Assembly: GCA_944386985.1 (NCBI GenBank)
Contig: CALXDD010000002.1
Location: forward strand, 98,520 to 162,519
Direction of reading: 5' to 3'
Source of the DNA: an uncultured Oscillospiraceae bacterium
GTDB taxonomy: Bacteria; Bacillota; Clostridia; Oscillospirales; Oscillospiraceae
DNA length: 64,000 nt
This document shows, piece by piece, positions 25,659 through 62,570 of the stretch (position 1 is its first letter; each line of letters begins with the position of its first letter). Under the pieces are notes generated by a model. That model worked only from the letters and a program-made list of their open reading frames with translations, was not told the origin of the DNA and made no database searches. The translations under genes were made by a program, and so were the position numbers.

Positions 25659-26543
25659 TTGTCTGATTATATTGCGCGCTACGGCGTATATCTGCGGGAG
25701 GAGAAGCATGCCTCAGAAAATACCATCGCGTCCTACCTCAGGGATGTGAGGCAGTTTGAGAGTTATCTGACCGCCGCGGAGGAGGAACCTTTGGAGAATT
25801 GCCTTCAGGTCCATGTAGAGGGATATCTTGTCTACATGCAGGGGAAGGGAAAGTCTGCGGCCAGCGTGGCCAGGGGCGTTGCCTCCTTGAAGTCTTTCTA
25901 CCAGTACATGATTTCCATTGGTGCTATGGACCAAAACCCCGCCAAGGGAGTGACTCCGGTGCGGGCGGAACGGAAGTATCCTGAGATTCTTACCGGCAGA
26001 GAGGTGGAGACCTTTTTAGAGCAGCCCCAGTGTGTGGATGCCAAAGGTTACCGGGACCACGCCATGCTGGAGCTGTTGTACGCCACCGGAATCCGGGTCA
26101 GCGAGCTGATTGCCTTGAATTTAGACGATGTGAATTTCAGCGCCGAAGTGCTGCGGTGTACCAGCCGGGGGCGGGAACGGTTTATCCCCCTGTATGCCGG
26201 CGCAGTGAAGGCTCTTCAGGACTATGTGCGGGACATCCGTCCCCAGATTATTCTCAGCAATGACGAGAAGGCGCTGTTTGTCAATATGAACGGCGAGCGC
26301 ATGAGCCGTCAGGGCTTTTGGAAGATCATCAAATATTATCAGGAGAAGGCTCAGATCAACAAGGACATTACGCCCCACACACTACGCCACTCCTTTGCCG
26401 CCCATCTGCTGGAAAACGGAGCGGATTTGCGGTCTATTCAGGAGATGCTGGGGCATGCGGACATCTCCTCCACCCAGATCTATTCCCACATGGTCAAGCA
26501 GAAGTTGAAGGATGTGTATCAAAAGGCACATCCCCGGGCGTAA
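25659..26543 (+). CDS. xerD: Tyrosine recombinase XerD
   Basis: A 294-residue site-specific recombinase resolving chromosome dimers. SAM-like core-binding domain (about 1-85) and a catalytic domain with Arg in ATGIRVSELI, the HTLRHSFAAHLL box, GHADISSTQIYSHM with the catalytic tyrosine, all correctly spaced. The start is TTG 25659, preceded by GGAGAGGAGG. It closes the spoIIM-xerD operon before a strong terminator. Confidence 0.94.
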   Translation: MSDYIARYGVYLREEKHASENTIASYLRDVRQFESYLTAAEEEPLENCLQVHVEGYLVYMQGKGKSAASVARGVASLKSFYQYMISIGAMDQNPAKGVTPVRAERKYPEILTGREVETFLEQPQCVDAKGYRDHAMLELLYATGIRVSELIALNLDDVNFSAEVLRCTSRGRERFIPLYAGAVKALQDYVRDIRPQIILSNDEKALFVNMNGERMSRQGFWKIIKYYQEKAQINKDITPHTLRHSFAAHLLENGADLRSIQEMLGHADISSTQIYSHMVKQKLKDVYQKAHPRA

Positions 26544-56439: not shown

Positions 56440-57183
56440 GTGTTTTGTATCATTACAAAGCGTCATGTAGCCATGCTGCTTGGACTGATGTTATTCGTCA
56501 TCCTGTTTTCCTCCATTCTTTGGAATGGTGCTGTCCAGCCGGCTTTCCAGCAGCAGTCCGCCAGTTCCAGGCCCAGTGTCGTCATCATCGATCCGGGCCA
56601 CGGAGGTGAAGATGGCGGCGCGGTGGCGGCAGACGGTACGGTGGAGAGTGGGATCAATCTCTCCATTGCGCTGAAGGTAGAGGAGCTGCTGTTTCTTATG
56701 GGCCAGGAGACGGAAATGACCAGGCGGGAAGATATCTCCATCTATTCCCAAGGGGCGGAGACCCTGCGGGAAAAGAAAGTGTCGGATCTCCACAATCGGG
56801 TGGATCTGGTCAATGGCATGGGGGAGGGTACCGTTCTCCTTTCCATCCATCAGAACAGTCTTCCCCAAGCCAAAAGCGTCCATGGCGCTCAGGTTTTCTA
56901 TAACGATTTTCCAGCAGCGGAGACCCTGGCGGCCTCCATCCAGCAGTCGCTGAATCAGAGCGCAAATCAGGGCGGAGAAAAGGCATACAAATCCGTTGAT
57001 TCCTCTGTCTATTTGATGGCCCATATCCATTGCCCGGGCGTCTTGGTGGAGTGCGGCTTTTTGTCCAACATGGAGGAGTCTGCACTGCTGCAGACAGAGG
57101 AATATCAAAGAAAACTGGCGCTGTCGGTGACCGCCGGATATCTGGCGGGAAGCGCGGCGCTGTATGAGGAAGGAACTGCATGA
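56440..57183 (+). CDS. cwlD: N-acetylmuramoyl-L-alanine amidase CwlD
   Basis: A 247-residue amidase that forms muramic-delta-lactam in spore cortex together with PdaA. An N-terminal membrane helix (about 12-32) anchors it. The Amidase_3 zinc residues are His in IDPGHGGEDGG, Glu in VESGINLS, His in SIHQNS and a late catalytic Glu in GVLVECGFLSN. GTG 56440 is chosen on ribosome-binding-site spacing. It overlaps radA by four bases. Confidence 0.9.
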   Translation: MFCIITKRHVAMLLGLMLFVILFSSILWNGAVQPAFQQQSASSRPSVVIIDPGHGGEDGGAVAADGTVESGINLSIALKVEELLFLMGQETEMTRREDISIYSQGAETLREKKVSDLHNRVDLVNGMGEGTVLLSIHQNSLPQAKSVHGAQVFYNDFPAAETLAASIQQSLNQSANQGGEKAYKSVDSSVYLMAHIHCPGVLVECGFLSNMEESALLQTEEYQRKLALSVTAGYLAGSAALYEEGTA

Positions 57184-58556
57184 AGACGAAGACTGTGTTT
57201 TACTGCACGGAGTGTGGAAATGAAACGCCGAAATGGGCAGGGAAGTGCCCCGCCTGCGGCGCATGGAATACCATTGTAGAGCAGCCCTCCGCTCTAAAGG
57301 CCAAGTCCGGCAGCAGCCGCAGCAGTGCCAATGGTGGGTATTCTCCTGTAAAGGCAGTACGCCTTTCAGAAATTGAGGGACAACAGGAGATCCGGTTTTC
57401 TACCGGAATGAAGGAACTGGATCGTGTGTTGGGCGGAGGCGCCGTAAAGGGCTCTCTGGTGCTGGTAGGCGGTGCGCCGGGTATCGGAAAAAGTACGCTG
57501 ATGCTGCAGATCTGCCATACCCTGTGCAGCGCTTCCAAGGTGCTGTACGTCTCCGGAGAGGAGTCAGTAGGGCAGCTAAAGCTGCGGGCCCAGCGGCTGA
57601 AGGTGACAGGGGAGGAGCTTTATATTCTGGCGGAGACAGCGCTGGAGGATGTGCTGGAATCCGTACGTCGGGAAGCGCCGGACGTTCTGATCATCGATTC
57701 CATCCAGACTCTGTACAATCCCAATCTGGATACTCCGCCGGGGAGCATCGGACAAGTTAAGGACTGCACTTTGGCACTGATGGATCTGGCCAAGCGGCAG
57801 GGAGTGACTGTCTTTGTGATCGGCCATGTGAACAAAGAGGGTTCCATCGCAGGGCCAAAGGTTCTGGAGCACATGGTGGACTGTGTACTATATTTTGAAG
57901 GCGACCAACACAATACCTACCGAATTCTTCGAGCTGCAAAAAATCGATTTGGTGCTACCAATGAGATCGGCGTCTTTGAAATGCAGAATGATGGCCTTTA
58001 TGAGGTGGAAAACCCCTCTAAAATGCTGCTGTCAGGGCGTCCAGAGGGTGCCAGCGGCACCTGTGTGACCTGTGTCATGGAGGGCGCCCGGCCAGTGCTT
58101 GCGGAGATCCAGGCGCTGATCGCACCCACCAGCTTTTCTGCGCCCCGACGGACCAGCAATGGATTTGACTTCAACCGGGCGGCTATGCTGATGGCGGTAC
58201 TGGAGAAGCGAGCGGGACTGCGACTGTCCAACTGCGATGCTTATATGAATATCATCGGGGGACTGACTCTGGACGAACCTGCCGCTGACCTGGCAGCCAT
58301 TTTGGCCTTGGCGTCCAGCTATTTGGACAAGCCGATAGCGAGCGACCTGGCTGCCATCGGTGAGGTTGGGCTGACCGGAGAACTGCGGGCAGTGAACCAT
58401 CTGGAGCAGCGTTTGTCGGAAGTTCGCCGACTGGGATTTACCAAGTGTGTAATTCCCAAACGCCGCAGCGGAAAACTGGAACCTGGCGACGGCCTGACGC
58501 TGATCCAGGCCGATCACATTGGTGAAGCCATCCGCGCGGTGCTGGGCAAAACTTGA
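57180..58556 (+). CDS. radA: DNA repair protein RadA
   Basis: A 458-residue RecA-like helicase for recombination intermediates. The zinc finger reads CTECGNETPKWAGKCPACG (residues 9-27), Walker A is GGAPGIGKSTLML, the KNRFG motif is present and the C-terminal Lon-like domain contains GLTGELRAVNHLEQRL. Start ATG 57180 overlaps cwlD. The mobile element begins 75 bases after its stop. Confidence 0.97.
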   Translation: MKTKTVFYCTECGNETPKWAGKCPACGAWNTIVEQPSALKAKSGSSRSSANGGYSPVKAVRLSEIEGQQEIRFSTGMKELDRVLGGGAVKGSLVLVGGAPGIGKSTLMLQICHTLCSASKVLYVSGEESVGQLKLRAQRLKVTGEELYILAETALEDVLESVRREAPDVLIIDSIQTLYNPNLDTPPGSIGQVKDCTLALMDLAKRQGVTVFVIGHVNKEGSIAGPKVLEHMVDCVLYFEGDQHNTYRILRAAKNRFGATNEIGVFEMQNDGLYEVENPSKMLLSGRPEGASGTCVTCVMEGARPVLAEIQALIAPTSFSAPRRTSNGFDFNRAAMLMAVLEKRAGLRLSNCDAYMNIIGGLTLDEPAADLAAILALASSYLDKPIASDLAAIGEVGLTGELRAVNHLEQRLSEVRRLGFTKCVIPKRRSGKLEPGDGLTLIQADHIGEAIRAVLGKT

Positions 58557-58631
58557 CACTGCCGGATCGAGCTTGAGCGTATGCCGGTCAAGTCGCTGAA
58601 GGGGAAGAAGTGATTTTTTCATACGCGCTTA

Positions 58632-58661
58632 ATTGAACAAAATATTGTAGTTTTGTTCAGT
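58632..58661. repeat. Recombination-site-like repeat A (left end of element)
   Basis: ATTGAACAAAA (58632-58642), an eight-base centre TATTGTAG and TTTTGTTCAGT (58651-58661). Arms of 11 bases in inverted orientation resemble a tyrosine-recombinase core site. Copies B and C are at 61259 and 61342. Confidence 0.65.
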
Positions 58662-58683
58662 CGTCCGGCAGGGATTTGGGCAT

Positions 58684-58773
58684 AAAAAAACCGCCCAGCT
58701 CGGACCCTGGTACACGACAGGGGGGTTACGGAAACCCGCTGGGCGGCAGTGTGGCTTTCGCCATCACCTGGCA
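58684..58773 (-). ncRNA. Candidate small RNA of about 90 nt
   Basis: A - strand promoter (58780-58808) would start transcription near 58773. The RNA begins with a hairpin carrying a GAAA tetraloop (TGGC-GAAA-GCCA), then two short hairpins (GGGTT...AACCC and CCCTG...CAGGG) enclosed by the nine-base outer stem CCGCCCAGC / GCTGGGCGG, which is followed by seven T and so doubles as terminator. No Rfam class was recognised. It would be antisense to the leader of rep if the element were circular. Confidence 0.7.
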
Positions 58774-58779
58774 CTATCG

Positions 58780-58808
58780 AGTATAGAATATTTGTTCCCC
58801 TTTGTCAA
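58780..58808 (-). promoter_or_regulatory. Consensus promoter of the small RNA
   Basis: On the - strand, TTGACA (58803-58808), exactly 17 bp, and TATACT (58780-58785). Confidence 0.85.
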
Positions 58809-58845
58809 GGTGGAATTTTGCGGCCTTATGCCGCTTGCCTACTTT

Positions 58846-58927
58846 TACCACCGGGCTCGGGCGGGGTCAAGGCCGCCGCCTGTGGCGGCGCTCGCTTTGG
58901 CCTTGACGCTGCCCGGGAACGGTGGTA
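58846..58927. repeat. Large imperfect inverted repeat
   Basis: TACCACCG and GGTCAAGGCC on the left pair with GGCCTTGAC and CGGTGGTA on the right, around a CCGCC/GGCGG inner stem: an 82-base cruciform-capable structure. It could be a replication origin hairpin or a transcript attenuator. Confidence 0.6.
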
Positions 58928-59460
58928 GAGCCTCCGATAGAAGGACAGGCCATCAGCGACGGAGCGCGCCGAGGCCCAGAGCCCCCCACACGGCGCGCGG
59001 GCCCCCGCCCGGACACCAGACCCGGACACGGGGGCCGAGCGCGCCCGAGGGGGGGACCCGCAGGCCGACCGACCCCCGCAAGGGAGGCCCTGGACGCGCG
59101 CCACCAGGCGGCGGCCAGAGCGGGGGGGGCGGCAGAGACCACCGACACCCACCAGGCGGCGCGCGACCAGACCGGGCGAGGGGGGCGGCGACGAGCCCGG
59201 CGGCCCCACGGGCCGACGGCAAGGGGCCCGCAGGCCCCGCAGCCCGCGCAAAACCCACCAGGCCACCGCCCAGCGCCAGACAACCGGCGCGGGGCGAATT
59301 CCAATGGAGCCGCCTTCTTCTTTGGGTGGGAAGGGATGCACCGGGCAGGGGGGACCAGCCACCGAGCGAGGGCCCGGGGAGCCGCCCGAGTAGGGCGGGG
59401 GGCCCCGGGGGGGAGCTCACCCACTGTCGAGGGCCGGAGATACCAACTCACAGATTCGCT
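58928..59460. other. Very GC-rich block without a trustworthy gene
   Basis: About 530 bases, visibly richer in G+C than everything around it, with runs of G and C. Several frames on both strands are open only because stop codons are rare. The conceptual products are Arg/Pro/Gly/Ala-rich with no motif, and no ribosome binding site favours any of them. I therefore call no CDS. From 59461 to 59639 the sequence returns to normal composition and holds a hairpin (CCTCTCCGC / GCGGAGAGG) near 59515-59537. Confidence 0.6.
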
Positions 59461-59639
59461 GAAATATTCGTTCGATAATCACAGAAAAACTGTGAGCCGT
59501 CATCATCTGGCGCTCCCCTCTCCGCTGGCGGAGAGGGGCGGGGGGGAGTGGTGGTCTCCAGGCTGTCGCCATGGCGGTTTGCCGGTGGGGTGGGCTGCAC
59601 CATCTATACTTGATATAGGGACGTTATTCCGTCACCAGC

Positions 59640-60521
59640 ATGAGGCAAGAGGGCATCATGTTTACCGGCAGGGTCAAGTCCCACCGGTGCGGAATCACGG
59701 AGATTCTATGCGCCTCCAGGGCTGTCTTTCGGCAGCCTGGTTGGGAGGAGCGGGGGAAGAAACGGCGGCTGCCGTGTCCGCAGTCTCAGGACACGGAGTG
59801 GCAGGAGCTCAGTGTATGGGACTTGGAGCGGATCGAACAGGAGGAGCAGCGTAAGGCTGCTGACAGCCTCAGCCGGTCCATGAGGCGGGCCCGGACCAGC
59901 GTCCGGGACTATGCCTTTAACACCCCCATGCGCTGGTTCATCACCCTTACCCTGGATAAGGCCACGGTGGATCGCTACGACGGCGAGGCCGTGGTCAAGA
60001 AGCTGTCCACCTGGCTGGACAATCAGGTCAGACGGCGGGGGCTGGCTTACGTCCTTGTTCCCGAGCGGCACAAGGACGGGGCCATCCACTTCCATGGCCT
60101 CATCAACGACGCCGTGGACGTGGTGAACAGCGGCACCCTGGTGCCTCCCGGCGGGGGCAAGCCCAGACGGCCCAGGTCCCGGCGGCAGCGGGACGAGTGG
60201 ATCGCCCAGGGCGGTCACGTCGTCTACAATCTCCCCGGCTGGCGGTTCGGGTTCACCACCGCCATGGAGCTGTATGGGGACTATGCCGCCGCCGTGGGAT
60301 ACATCTGCAAGTACATCGGCAAGGACCCCCAGAAGGTGGGGGGCCGGTGGTACTACTCCGGCGGCAAGCTGGGGCGGCCTGACGTGGAGTACCTCAACCT
60401 CAACGTGGAGGACCTGGAGGCCGCCGGGGCCTTTTCCTGGACCGCTGAGACGCTGGCCGGGGTCCGTTTCGCCTCCGCAATTTTTGGGCCGGATGGTCAG
60501 TTTACAAAATCTGGAAAGTAG
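59640..60521 (+). CDS. HUH-type rolling-circle replication initiator
   Basis: A 293-residue protein with the three Rep motifs in order: motif I FITLTL (100-105), the HUH motif HFHG (150-153) after VPERHKDGAI, and the catalytic-tyrosine motif YICKYIGK (221-228) with Tyr 221 and Tyr 225. A charged helical region (60-90) precedes them. Such enzymes nick one strand and start rolling-circle replication of plasmids and ssDNA phages. ATG 59640 or 59658 are possible starts; neither has a strong ribosome binding site. A hairpin separates it from the recombinase gene. Confidence 0.82.
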   Translation: MRQEGIMFTGRVKSHRCGITEILCASRAVFRQPGWEERGKKRRLPCPQSQDTEWQELSVWDLERIEQEEQRKAADSLSRSMRRARTSVRDYAFNTPMRWFITLTLDKATVDRYDGEAVVKKLSTWLDNQVRRRGLAYVLVPERHKDGAIHFHGLINDAVDVVNSGTLVPPGGGKPRRPRSRRQRDEWIAQGGHVVYNLPGWRFGFTTAMELYGDYAAAVGYICKYIGKDPQKVGGRWYYSGGKLGRPDVEYLNLNVEDLEAAGAFSWTAETLAGVRFASAIFGPDGQFTKSGK

Positions 60522-60530
60522 CCTCACGCC

Positions 60531-60567
60531 GAAAACCTCCGGGCCCCAAGGGCTGCCGGGGGTTTTC
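60531..60567 (+). terminator. Hairpin between rep and the recombinase
   Basis: GAAAACCTCCGG / CCGGGGGTTTTC with one mismatch; a weak terminator or mRNA stem. Confidence 0.5.
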
Positions 60568-60611
60568 CGGTTGGAATGGCTGGCAAAAAGTTCTGAAAAG
60601 GCGGGAATTTT

Positions 60612-61139
60612 ATGACGACTGAGTACCTTCTGAATAGGGAGGTGGAGCACGTTCTGGCCGCTCTCACGCCGTCAAATCGGTTGGTGGTTCGGGTCAGTTT
60701 ACACACCGGCCTCCGGGTCTCCGATGTGCTGGCCCTGCGGACAGAACAGCTCAAGCCCAGCTTCTGGGTCAAGGAGAGCAAGACCGGCAAGGCCAAGCGG
60801 GTGGGCCTTCCGGCGGAGCTGCTGGCGGACATCCGCAAACAGGCCGGGAAGGTCTGGGCCTTCCCAGGCCGCAGCGGCGACAAGCCCAGGACCCGGCAGG
60901 CTGTATGGAAGGACGTGAAGAGGGCAGCCAGGTTGTTCCGGCTGCCGCAGAACGTGGGCACCCACAGCTTCCGCAAAGTCTACGCCGTGCGGCTGCGGGA
61001 GAGGTACGGGGACCTGTCCAAGGTCCAGGCAGCCTTGAACCACGACAACTACGCCGTCACGGCGGTGTATGCCATGGCGGACGTGCTCCTGGAGGAGCGC
61101 CGCAGCCACCACTACCGGCGACGGTCAACTCGGAGTTGA
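60612..61139 (+). CDS. Short tyrosine recombinase (integrase)
   Basis: A 175-residue protein consisting almost only of the catalytic domain. Active-site residues: Arg 35 (HTGLRVSD), a lysine in the KTGKAKR hairpin (57-62), His 118 and Arg 121 (THSFRK), His 144 (LNHDNY) and Tyr 153, nine residues after His 144 as in XerD. The N-terminal SAM-like DNA-binding domain is missing, which is rare among active integrases. It follows rep in the same direction and presumably recombines the flanking repeats, alone or with a host Xer protein. Confidence 0.85.
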   Translation: MTTEYLLNREVEHVLAALTPSNRLVVRVSLHTGLRVSDVLALRTEQLKPSFWVKESKTGKAKRVGLPAELLADIRKQAGKVWAFPGRSGDKPRTRQAVWKDVKRAARLFRLPQNVGTHSFRKVYAVRLRERYGDLSKVQAALNHDNYAVTAVYAMADVLLEERRSHHYRRRSTRS

Positions 61140-61164
61140 CAGCCGCTGACGCTTCGGGTATAAT
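61136..61164 (+). promoter_or_regulatory. Perfect consensus promoter at the right end of the element
   Basis: TTGACA (61136-61141), exactly 17 bp, and TATAAT (61159-61164), overlapping the recombinase stop codon and pointing out of the element. A hairpin AGCCCTCC / GGAGGGCT (61171-61197) follows. Confidence 0.88.
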
Positions 61165-61213
61165 GAAATCAGCCCTCCGCATCAATTCGGGAGGGCTGGA
61201 AAGGAGCGTAGGA

Positions 61214-61270
61214 ATGACGGACGGCGGAGGCTGCCGTGTCCGGATCACCTACACGACGATTGAACAATAA
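61214..61270 (+). CDS. Tiny ORF ending in recombination site B
   Basis: An 18-codon ORF (MTDGGGCRVRITYTTIEQ) with a strong AAGGAG site seven bases upstream and a consensus promoter in front. Its last codons ATT GAA CAA TAA lie inside repeat B. In a circle joined at repeat A the frame would continue as NIVVLFSRPAGIWA. It may be a leader peptide, or the split 5' end of a junction-spanning ORF. Confidence 0.45.
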   Translation: MTDGGGCRVRITYTTIEQ

Positions 61271-61287
61271 CGGTTATTTTGTTCTGT
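61259..61287. repeat. Recombination-site-like repeat B
   Basis: ATTGAACAATA (61259-61269), a seven-base centre and TTTTGTTCTGT (61277-61287). Differs from repeat C at three arm positions. Confidence 0.55.
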
Positions 61288-61341
61288 TCCACTGATCCTG
61301 ACGCGCACCCCGAGAGGGGGGCGCTTGAATTTAGATTGAGA

Positions 61342-61369
61342 ATTGAACAAAATAAAAATTTTGTTCAAT
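61342..61369. repeat. Recombination-site-like repeat C
   Basis: ATTGAACAAAA (61342-61352), centre TAAAAA and TTTTGTTCAAT (61359-61369). A perfect 11-6-11 palindrome, the geometry of a dif/Xer site, 190 bases upstream of the Xer-type gene. It shares AATTGAACAAAATA with repeat A as a 14-base direct repeat. Confidence 0.7.
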
Positions 61370-61559
61370 TTAGGGGAGGGGCAAATTCTTTCTTCTCGTG
61401 TTTTGCGGCCTTTTTACCCGATTCGGGGTCTGGACAGGCTCAGTCCCCGGACAGTCTGGATCTTGCTCATATAATGCCGCACACTGCAATTTCACTTGAT
61501 GGAAGCGTTTATCGTGGCGCAGATAAAACAGAATAGAAAATAATTGAGAGGTTTGTACA

Positions 61560-62570
61560 ATGTTGGATTATCGGGACGATGCGCCCAAGGTTTTGCTGGA
61601 TTTTCTGTCTTACCATGAGACCATCAAAGCCCATTCACGAAAAACGGTGGATGAATACTATCTGGACCTGCGGAATTTCTTTCGCTATCTCAAACAGCTA
61701 CGGAATCCCTCACTGCAGAATCTTCCGCTGGATGAAATCTCCATTCGGGACGTAGATATCGAATTGATCCGTACCATTACACTCACAGATGTCTACAGCT
61801 ATATGTCCTATCTCAGCCGAGATCGGCAGCTTCACCACAACAGCCAACACTCGGCCACTGGGCTGTCTGCCGCCTCACGGGCACGGAAAATTGCAACACT
61901 TCGTTCATTTTTTAACTATCTCACTCGAAAGGCCCACCTGCTGGAGGAAAATCCTATCAAGGATATTGATTCTCCAAAACTGATGAAAACACTGCCGAAA
62001 TATTTAACTTTTGAGGAATCTGTGGAACTTTTGGATGCTGTTGATGGAGACCATCGGGAGCGGGACTACTGTATTCTGACACTGTTTCTTAATTGTGGCC
62101 TTCGAATCTCCGAACTGATCGGCATCAATCTCAATGACATTCAGGATGACGCCCTGCGGATTCGCGGCAAGGGCGGAAAAACCAGAATCGTTTATCTTAA
62201 TGAGGCCTGCCGGAATGCCCTTGACGCTTATCTCGCCGTCCGCCGGCCCATTGTGGGGCGGGATGATCAGGCTCTTTTCCTCTCTGCCAGAGATCAACGG
62301 ATCAGCCGCTCCACCGTACACGCCCTGGTCAAAAAGCATTTAGGCGCCGCCGGACTCGACAGCACCCAGTACTCTTCCCACAAGCTTCGTCATACCGCCG
62401 CTACGCTGATGCTGCAAAACGGCGTGGATGTGCGAGCAGTCCAGGAGGTACTGGGCCATGAGCATCTGAATACTACGGAGATCTATACTCACATTGACAA
62501 TGAGGCACTGCGGATAGCCTCCCGGGCCAATCCGCTGGGCCATGTAAAGCCAAAGAAGAAAGAGGGATGA
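61560..62570 (+). CDS. xerC: Xer-type tyrosine recombinase
   Basis: A 336-residue recombinase with a complete N-terminal core-binding domain (about 10-140) and catalytic domain: Arg in NCGLRISELIG, a lysine in IRGKGGKTRIV, the SSHKLRHTAATL box and GHEHLNTTEIYTHI with the catalytic Tyr. Longer than XerC/XerD by about 40 residues. Whether it is the chromosomal XerC or a separate Xer is undecided. GAGAGG precedes ATG 61560. A promoter of its own is not obvious, but the element promoter at 61136 points at it. Confidence 0.85.
   Translation: MLDYRDDAPKVLLDFLSYHETIKAHSRKTVDEYYLDLRNFFRYLKQLRNPSLQNLPLDEISIRDVDIELIRTITLTDVYSYMSYLSRDRQLHHNSQHSATGLSAASRARKIATLRSFFNYLTRKAHLLEENPIKDIDSPKLMKTLPKYLTFEESVELLDAVDGDHRERDYCILTLFLNCGLRISELIGINLNDIQDDALRIRGKGGKTRIVYLNEACRNALDAYLAVRRPIVGRDDQALFLSARDQRISRSTVHALVKKHLGAAGLDSTQYSSHKLRHTAATLMLQNGVDVRAVQEVLGHEHLNTTEIYTHIDNEALRIASRANPLGHVKPKKKEG

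Follow-up and report, generated by a model that had tools for sequence, protein, structure and literature searches.

A two-gene element between radA and xer

In the present study, we analyzed a 64,000-nucleotide stretch of DNA from an uncultured Oscillospiraceae bacterium (contig CALXDD010000002.1; hereafter, the window), in which an insert of 2.74 kb (positions 58631–61370) lies between radA and a xer gene. The host radA gene on the left flank (57180–58556, plus strand) matched TIGR00416 at 602 bits. The host xer gene on the right (61560–62570, plus strand) encodes a protein with the domains PF00589 and PF02899, for which the best model was TIGR02224 (XerC) at 235 bits, below the cut-off of 335. 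The only genes recognizable in the insert were rep and rec, both on the plus strand.

Regarding rep (59640–60521), which is present as a single copy in the source genome, the product of 293 amino acids is an HUH rolling-circle initiator (PF23343, REP_ORF2-G2P, E 5.8e-14), and its HFHG and YICKY motifs can be read directly in the open reading frame (ORF). The AlphaFold2 model of Rep had a mean predicted local distance difference test (pLDDT) score of 88.2, and a search of solved structures with an alignment made from 16 Reps gave no match to a relative at E<=0.1. The rec gene (60612–61139) encodes a tyrosine recombinase of 175 amino acids that comprises the catalytic domain only (PF00589, E 2.4e-19); since it starts 90 nt past the rep stop codon, there is no room for an N-terminal domain. 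Residues R35, K57/K60, H118, R121, H144, and Y153, which we take to be the catalytic residues of tyrosine recombinases, were conserved without exception across the 17 homologues aligned. The AlphaFold2 model of Rec was confident (mean pLDDT of 92.5), and its top Foldseek matches were XerH-difH (5jk0) and an integron recombinase (2a3v).

A putative double-strand origin, TACTTGATA-N-GGACGTTATTCCGTCA, precedes rep (59607–59635, plus strand), and both features of a rolling-circle plasmid, an HUH Rep and an origin motif with a nick site, appear to be present in the element. Among 17 loci, including a near twin of the window (L022), TACTTGATA followed by GGACRTTATTCCGTCA or a near form was found upstream of rep by pattern in 16; the motif of the other, L041, has diverged and was recognized by eye. 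The nick presumably falls at CTTG^ATA, as in origins of the phiX174 and pC194 types, and the displaced strand would therefore be the strand written here, such that rolling-circle replication would supply the strand that folds as described below.

This anatomy had been outlined in an earlier reading made from the letters of the window (the sequence-only reading), which described an HUH Rep with the two motifs, a 175-residue recombinase that retains all catalytic residues and lacks the N-terminal domain, and inverted sites with spacers of 6 to 8 nt between radA and a Xer-type gene. The ORFs and their Pfam domains, the invariant residues, the 90-nt gap, and three sites with spacers within that range are in agreement with this description, the coordinates of which were right to within 1–2 bases. 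Three further aspects had escaped it: the likely identity of the target as dif, the nature of the third site as an inverted partner of attP, and the spread of the family.

Insertion site, movement, and relatives

The three sites of the element lie at 58633–58660 (spacer of 8 nt), 61260–61286 (7 nt), and 61343–61368 (6 nt). In eight of the ten congeners (G001–G005, G007, G009, and G010), the element is absent and radA, a single 26-bp near-palindrome, TTGAACAAAATAAAAATTTTGTTCAA, and xer follow one another. The 26-bp core of the right-hand site of the window, attR (61343–61368; 61341–61370 including its edges), is identical to this empty site and would represent an intact dif core. With up to one mismatch, the TTGAACAAAATAAAAATTTTGTTCAA pattern occurred at one place per genome in all 11 genomes of the genus (own genome included) and was present in 25 of the 99 genomes searched; the perfect site occurred at one place in the 64 kb with up to three mismatches at the same spacing, against 0 expected from 100 dinucleotide shuffles. 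In a 200-kb stretch of Oscillibacter ruminantium GH1, GC skew in 20-kb blocks ranged from +0.05 to +0.10 on one side of the site and from -0.04 to -0.12 on the opposite side; its best change point was 2.4 kb away from the site. The corresponding distances were 4.5 kb in a Dysosmobacter metagenome-assembled genome (MAG; 200 kb) and 0.1, 1.1, 5.7, and 8.2 kb in G046, G040, G039, and G025, respectively. According to the available text of the sources, dif is known to lie near the GC-skew switch and near xerC (PMC3025954), and xer genes adjoin dif in single-recombinase systems (PMC5357621). Because genomes of the genus have one copy of the site, which adjoins xer and, in six other genomes, is near a GC-skew switch, the insertion target is, as judged from these sequence features, almost certainly the chromosomal dif site. 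A host with a single palindrome-acting Xer similar to XerH was considered and is not claimed; since a full XerD is also encoded in the window (25659–26543; TIGR02225, 339.8 bits against a cut-off of 329.6), a pair of the XerC/XerD type is equally likely.

The left-hand site, attL (58631–58660), consists of the host left arm, AATTGAACAAAATA, followed by the spacer and right arm of the element, TTGTAG-TTTTGTTCAG, and the empty site of relatives fixes this junction to within the shared arm. At attR, the sequence of the element extends up to the left arm and is followed by the host spacer and right arm; the crossover point read from the two junctions is, therefore, inside the left arm or immediately beyond it. 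The attP site is TTGAACAAAA-TATTGTAG-TTTTGTTCAG and dif is TTGAACAAAA-TAAAAA-TTTTGTTCAA, with spacers of 8 and 6 nt, respectively, that also differ in sequence beyond TA. In L026, L027, and other related loci, the match between attP and dif stops after the first or second base of the spacer. In L034 (3290–3330 and 6790–6890), all three sites, the dif-like one and the two att sites, have another arm sequence in common, CGGCATAAT; the sites of the elements thus appear to track the host dif.

The same element occupies the same site in another congener, G006. Between G006 and the window, identical fourfold-degenerate sites amounted to 87.8% in rep (130/148) and 89.6% in rec (86/96), compared with 45.0% in radA (104/231) and 56.5% in xer (83/147). 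Because the element is far less diverged than the flanking genes, it has moved horizontally and, on these comparisons, is real and mobile. In the tenth congener, G008, the left and right halves of the dif locus are on two contigs, and the genes between them encode a Rep assigned to the same Pfam family as well as a Zot-like protein (19.9 bits, just under the Pfam cut-off). Its dif is probably occupied by an inovirus, provided that the two contigs are adjacent, as we infer. On these contigs (C120 and C171; L160/L161), the Zot-like ORF passes through dif at its own 3' end.

A scan of genome contigs with Rec identified 18 loci, all of which encode a relative of Rep. The same kind of xer (49–93% identity) was within the fetched stretch at 14 of the 18, and both ends of the element were found beside xer in nine (L025, L026, L027, L028, L030, L031, L034, L037, and L041), one of which is from O. 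ruminantium GH1, a genome not labelled as a MAG. Related elements adjoin the same xer in several genera. When the Rep alignment was searched against 394 genomes of the order, matches were found in 20 (own genome included) at 24 loci, nine of which had Rec within the fetched flank (<=1.5 kb); a weak tenth match (L126) was the host xer. A search with Rec at E<=0.001 matched 81 of 99 relatives, nearly all through ordinary tyrosine recombinases near 30% identity, and close Rec proteins were confined to the own genome, G006 (99%), G060 (63%), and G082 (50%). Among viral contigs, no relative was confirmed with the single Rec protein as the query, a scan with the Rec alignment gave 14 loci, with L130 (47%, residues 3–159) as the sole close match over most of the length, and a scan with the Rep alignment gave one locus, L144.

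Two tandem copies of the element are present in L031. L038 is a contig of 3036 bp with an exact terminal overlap of 141 bp, which corresponds to a circle of 2895 bp; an extrachromosomal circle was thus observed for this relative, and for the element of the window, for which no reads were available, no circle junction was encountered. The sequence-only reading had proposed an integrative element, and the empty sites of the eight congeners that lack the 2.7 kb, the circular relative, and the Rec relatives on circles from rat cecum (see below) bear this proposal out. Its term "autonomous" holds in part, for replication as a circle among relatives; Rec may depend on host Xer, and no transfer gene was recognized in the element.

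A further element of the family lies beside xer in G195 (L163:5656–8612), with attL, an internal site, and attR visible and their pairing recognized by eye. In G380 (L159:5091–13821), three near-identical tandem Rep elements of 2.9 kb without Rec adjoin xer, and this array has a different dif-like site, with TTTCGCTAAAT arms, and a mirrored folding pair of attP. As far as can be read from these sequences, dif beside xer is a recurrent insertion site in the group, the users of which also include a probable inovirus and tandem arrays.

Relatives of Rec (40–62% identity) are also encoded by seven circular plasmids from rat cecum (pRGF00147, pRGI00952, pRGI00836, pRGF00030, pRGI01058, pRGF00146, and pRGI00891), the genes of which were deposited without names. 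These plasmids are circular and 2.2–3.8 kb in size, they have a Rec relative in common with the element, and three of the seven have a recognizable pair of internal site and attP; no Rep of this family was found in the seven at E<=1e-6. In the available text of the rat-cecum metamobilome study (PMC3913684), inverse PCR products of the expected size are described for 38 of the 40 circles that were tested from the metamobilome as a whole; phage-integrase domains are counted in that text, which contains no mention of Xer or a dif site.

Predicted folding of attP and probable integration into dif

The internal site (I; 61260–61286, plus strand) reads as the inverted complement of attP, with complementarity that continues beyond the arms on the outer side. 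The two sites are approximately 80 nt apart in the window and 58–199 nt apart across 15 elements, which comprise 11 elements from the 18 Rec loci, that of the window, and three of the seven rat-cecum plasmids. In L028, the right half of attP, TTTTGTGCCTTTTCGCC, complements GGCGAAATTGCACAAAA in I, and in L030 the flank is altered on both sides, in I and in attP. When I and attP were permuted among the 15 elements, scores for the outer stem of own pairs summed to 203, whereas permuted pairings averaged 111 and did not exceed 159 (0/20,000 as high), and those for the inner stem summed to 111, against a permuted mean of 95.4 (2/20,000 as high). This test covers the element-specific part of the pairing only. 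L025, a near twin of the window element, was left out, L039 and L040 were merged, and loci with attL unidentified or off the contig (L029, L032, L033, L035, and L042) did not enter the test; the loci of G060 and G082 (L023 and L024) and L162–L168 were outside the test. The predicted folds placed I on attP with largely unpaired spacers in all 15 elements, with z values against dinucleotide shuffles of -2.8 to -10.4, the weakest being those of the rat plasmids L155 and L151. In a search for a partner within 300 nt inside attR, the number of shuffles per 1000 that scored as well was 2 for the window, 1 for L022, 0 for L028, and 5 for L037. By these findings, I is the inverted partner of attP, and the two co-vary and are predicted to fold into a dif-like hairpin.

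Integration of a folded single strand has a precedent in the filamentous phage CTXphi. As described in the available text of PMC3089051 and PMC4246890, its attP1 and attP2 are inverted, approximately 90 nt apart, and have unequal spacers; XerC swaps one pair of strands, a new functional dif arises, and excision was not detected. The present element has in common with integrative mobile elements exploiting Xer (IMEX) of the CTXphi type (RS1, Ypf-phi, and CUS-1phi), as far as the available text describes them, two inverted dif-like sites that pair in single-stranded DNA with unequal spacers, insertion at dif, the formation of a functional dif (here read from sequence), and tandem copies. It differs from them in having a tyrosine recombinase of its own and no recognized phage structural genes, in its hosts, which are Oscillospiraceae and their relatives, and in its dif, which is near-palindromic and adjoins xer. 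Because the element carries its own recombinase, whereas IMEX rely on host Xer, we do not file it as an IMEX in the strict sense. Neither is it filed as an inovirus, since no structural gene was recognized; only rep and rec were found where Inoviridae have Zot/pI and coat genes. The gut inoviruses named bajarodino and Dulem have a related Rep; the three records that were opened differ from the element in their size of 5.4–6.4 kb, the presence of Zot, and the lack of an annotated recombinase or integrase. Rec resembles integron integrases in that both are tyrosine recombinases, in the possible joining of a folded single strand to a duplex site, and in a structure similar to 2a3v, whereas the integron-integrase model TIGR02249 gave it 50.4 bits against a cut-off of 265.

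Considering the sites, the hairpin, and the two genes, we regard it as probable that this is a minimal rolling-circle element that enters dif as folded single-stranded DNA, leaves an intact dif, and carries its own minimal recombinase. Rep would nick the plus strand and single-stranded circles would be released, in which I and attP would pair, such that a single dif-like duplex, its spacers mismatched, is presented. At this stage Rec, probably together with host Xer, would swap one pair of strands at the left arm, where attP equals dif (TTGAACAAAATA), and replication would complete the insertion. Since the folded site does not persist once the DNA is duplex, insertion would proceed mostly in one direction, and tandem arrays would arise because the regenerated dif accepts further copies.

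Several observations weigh against this proposal. The arms of dif resemble those of I and attP in any case, such that part of the pairing is expected without selection for folding, and several of the 15 elements are interrelated. The own score of the inner stem was within 1 of the cross mean in 9 of the 15 elements, and no I/attP pair was found in four rat-cecum plasmids (L149, L150, L152, and L154). The array without Rec in G380 has a foldable pair in mirrored order, with a score of 12 on the downstream side (0/1000 shuffles as good) and of 8 on the upstream side (403/1000). The hairpin, therefore, does not require Rec, and the notion that the folding pair is restricted to Rec-bearing elements was dropped. 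The probable inovirus of G008 showed no folding pair (517 and 814 of 1000 shuffles as good). In the own genome, where the contig continues for 2.6 kb beyond the site and thus stops too early for a clear GC-skew signal, the best change point lies 17 kb from the site and the cumulative maximum 0.3 kb from it.

Host Xer might itself perform the strand exchange, as for CTXphi, with Rec as an accessory protein (an Xer activator, excision factor, or multimer resolvase), and we treat this as a serious possibility, albeit the less probable one. Elements without Rec at such sites, namely the probable inovirus of G008 and the triple array of G380, are consistent with it, as are the full XerD that the host has besides the dif-adjacent Xer and the Xer activation factor that, in the available literature, TLCphi, another dif element, is reported to carry; host Xer may suffice in G380, where the mirrored folding pair of the array lies beside xer at a dif-like site. 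Exchange by host Xer alone is opposed by the invariance of the catalytic residues in all 17 Rec homologues and by three plasmids from rat cecum that lack this Rep and yet have both Rec and an I/attP pair, a co-occurrence that suggests the action of Rec on the hairpin. Catalysis by Rec, jointly with Xer or in the lead, appears somewhat more likely than catalysis by Xer alone. More tentatively, and at somewhat less than even likelihood, Rec may be an element-encoded recombinase of the catalytic domain only that is specialized for joining a folded single-stranded attP to duplex dif. It would then represent a third independent system acting on single-stranded DNA hairpins, beside integron integrases and CTXphi/XerC, and part of a portable cassette of rec and hairpin on small circular replicons with differing replication genes.

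The other explanations concern the form and lifestyle of the element. A satellite of filamentous phages that relies on a helper inovirus for its packaging, in the way that RS1 relies on CTXphi, would be compatible with entry as a folded single strand; on the sequences at hand such a life is possible, though rather unlikely. Rep matched 29 phage records, all named bajarodino or Dulem virus, with 27.9–34.9% identity among the 20 matches listed, and the three that were opened are Inoviridae. In L036 (6655–10825), a Zot gene (23.6 bits; cut-off, 20.3) and a Rep of the Rep_OBD type abut the right end of the element on the opposite strand, and this neighbor is probably an inovirus; L130 (1–6101, an IMG/VR contig) has Rep and Rec with Zot 4.3 kb downstream and is either a co-integrated array or an inovirus carrying rec. 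The probable inovirus in the same dif within the genus, in G008, also fits a satellite. On the other hand, Rep is also distantly similar to 27 plasmid records, mostly small staphylococcal ones (24–29% among the 20 listed), and the Zot model had no match in the own genome and matched 3 of 99 genomes at E<=0.001, a poor probe in view of its hits in 5 of 14 control genomes and its failure to detect the protein of G008 (19.9 bits). Reversible integration of a double-stranded attP, similar to VGJphi or TLCphi, with I as a mere accessory binding site, is improbable: attP has two recognizable arms in the window and most tested relatives, such that a duplex site is possible, and circular forms among relatives fit excision, whereas attP and dif have the unequal and divergent spacers described above, the complementarity of I and attP passes the arms into flanks that vary among elements, and in L040 and L041 the right arm of attP matches dif in approximately TTTTG only, although the flank of this arm still pairs with I. 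Vertical inheritance of an immobile relic within the clade is hardly credible; related elements beside the same xer in several genera would fit it, and the absence of the element from 8 of 10 congeners, its intact ORFs, and its divergence far below that of the flanking genes contradict it.

Other noncoding features and implications

A promoter-like sequence, TTGACA-N17-TATAAT (61136–61164, plus strand), was found by pattern and is directed outward across the att junction. It starts at the rec stop codon, and of 17 loci, all but L035, L041, and L042 had a looser form close to that stop (14 loci; 0.1 expected by mononucleotide shuffling). Within a circle or a tandem array, the sequence would point across attP to rep, and in a single insertion to the host xer, which raises the question of whether dimer resolution is altered by the element. 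A branched hairpin by an A run (58691–58747), predicted as a DNA fold near the left end of the element, may be terminator-like on the minus strand or structured DNA, and a stretch similar to it by eye is present in L031. The element also contains 520 bp of noncoding DNA with 77.5% GC (58930–59450). Rfam gave a sub-threshold match only.

In the open-access literature examined, with subscription papers and preprints outside this scope, we found no element with a Rep and a minimal recombinase at dif in clostridia, and its own minimal recombinase sets the element apart from the dif-integrating elements described in the literature examined. Integration of a folded single strand at dif is described, in the available text of PMC3089051 and PMC4246890, for filamentous phages such as CTXphi. 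That anatomy is now seen in gut clostridia, in a replicon of two genes that has no recognizable phage genes and has a recombinase of its own cut to the catalytic domain. Taken together with at least 15 natural variants in which the half-sites co-vary, this would make the mechanism of single-stranded DNA hairpins testable in a very small system.

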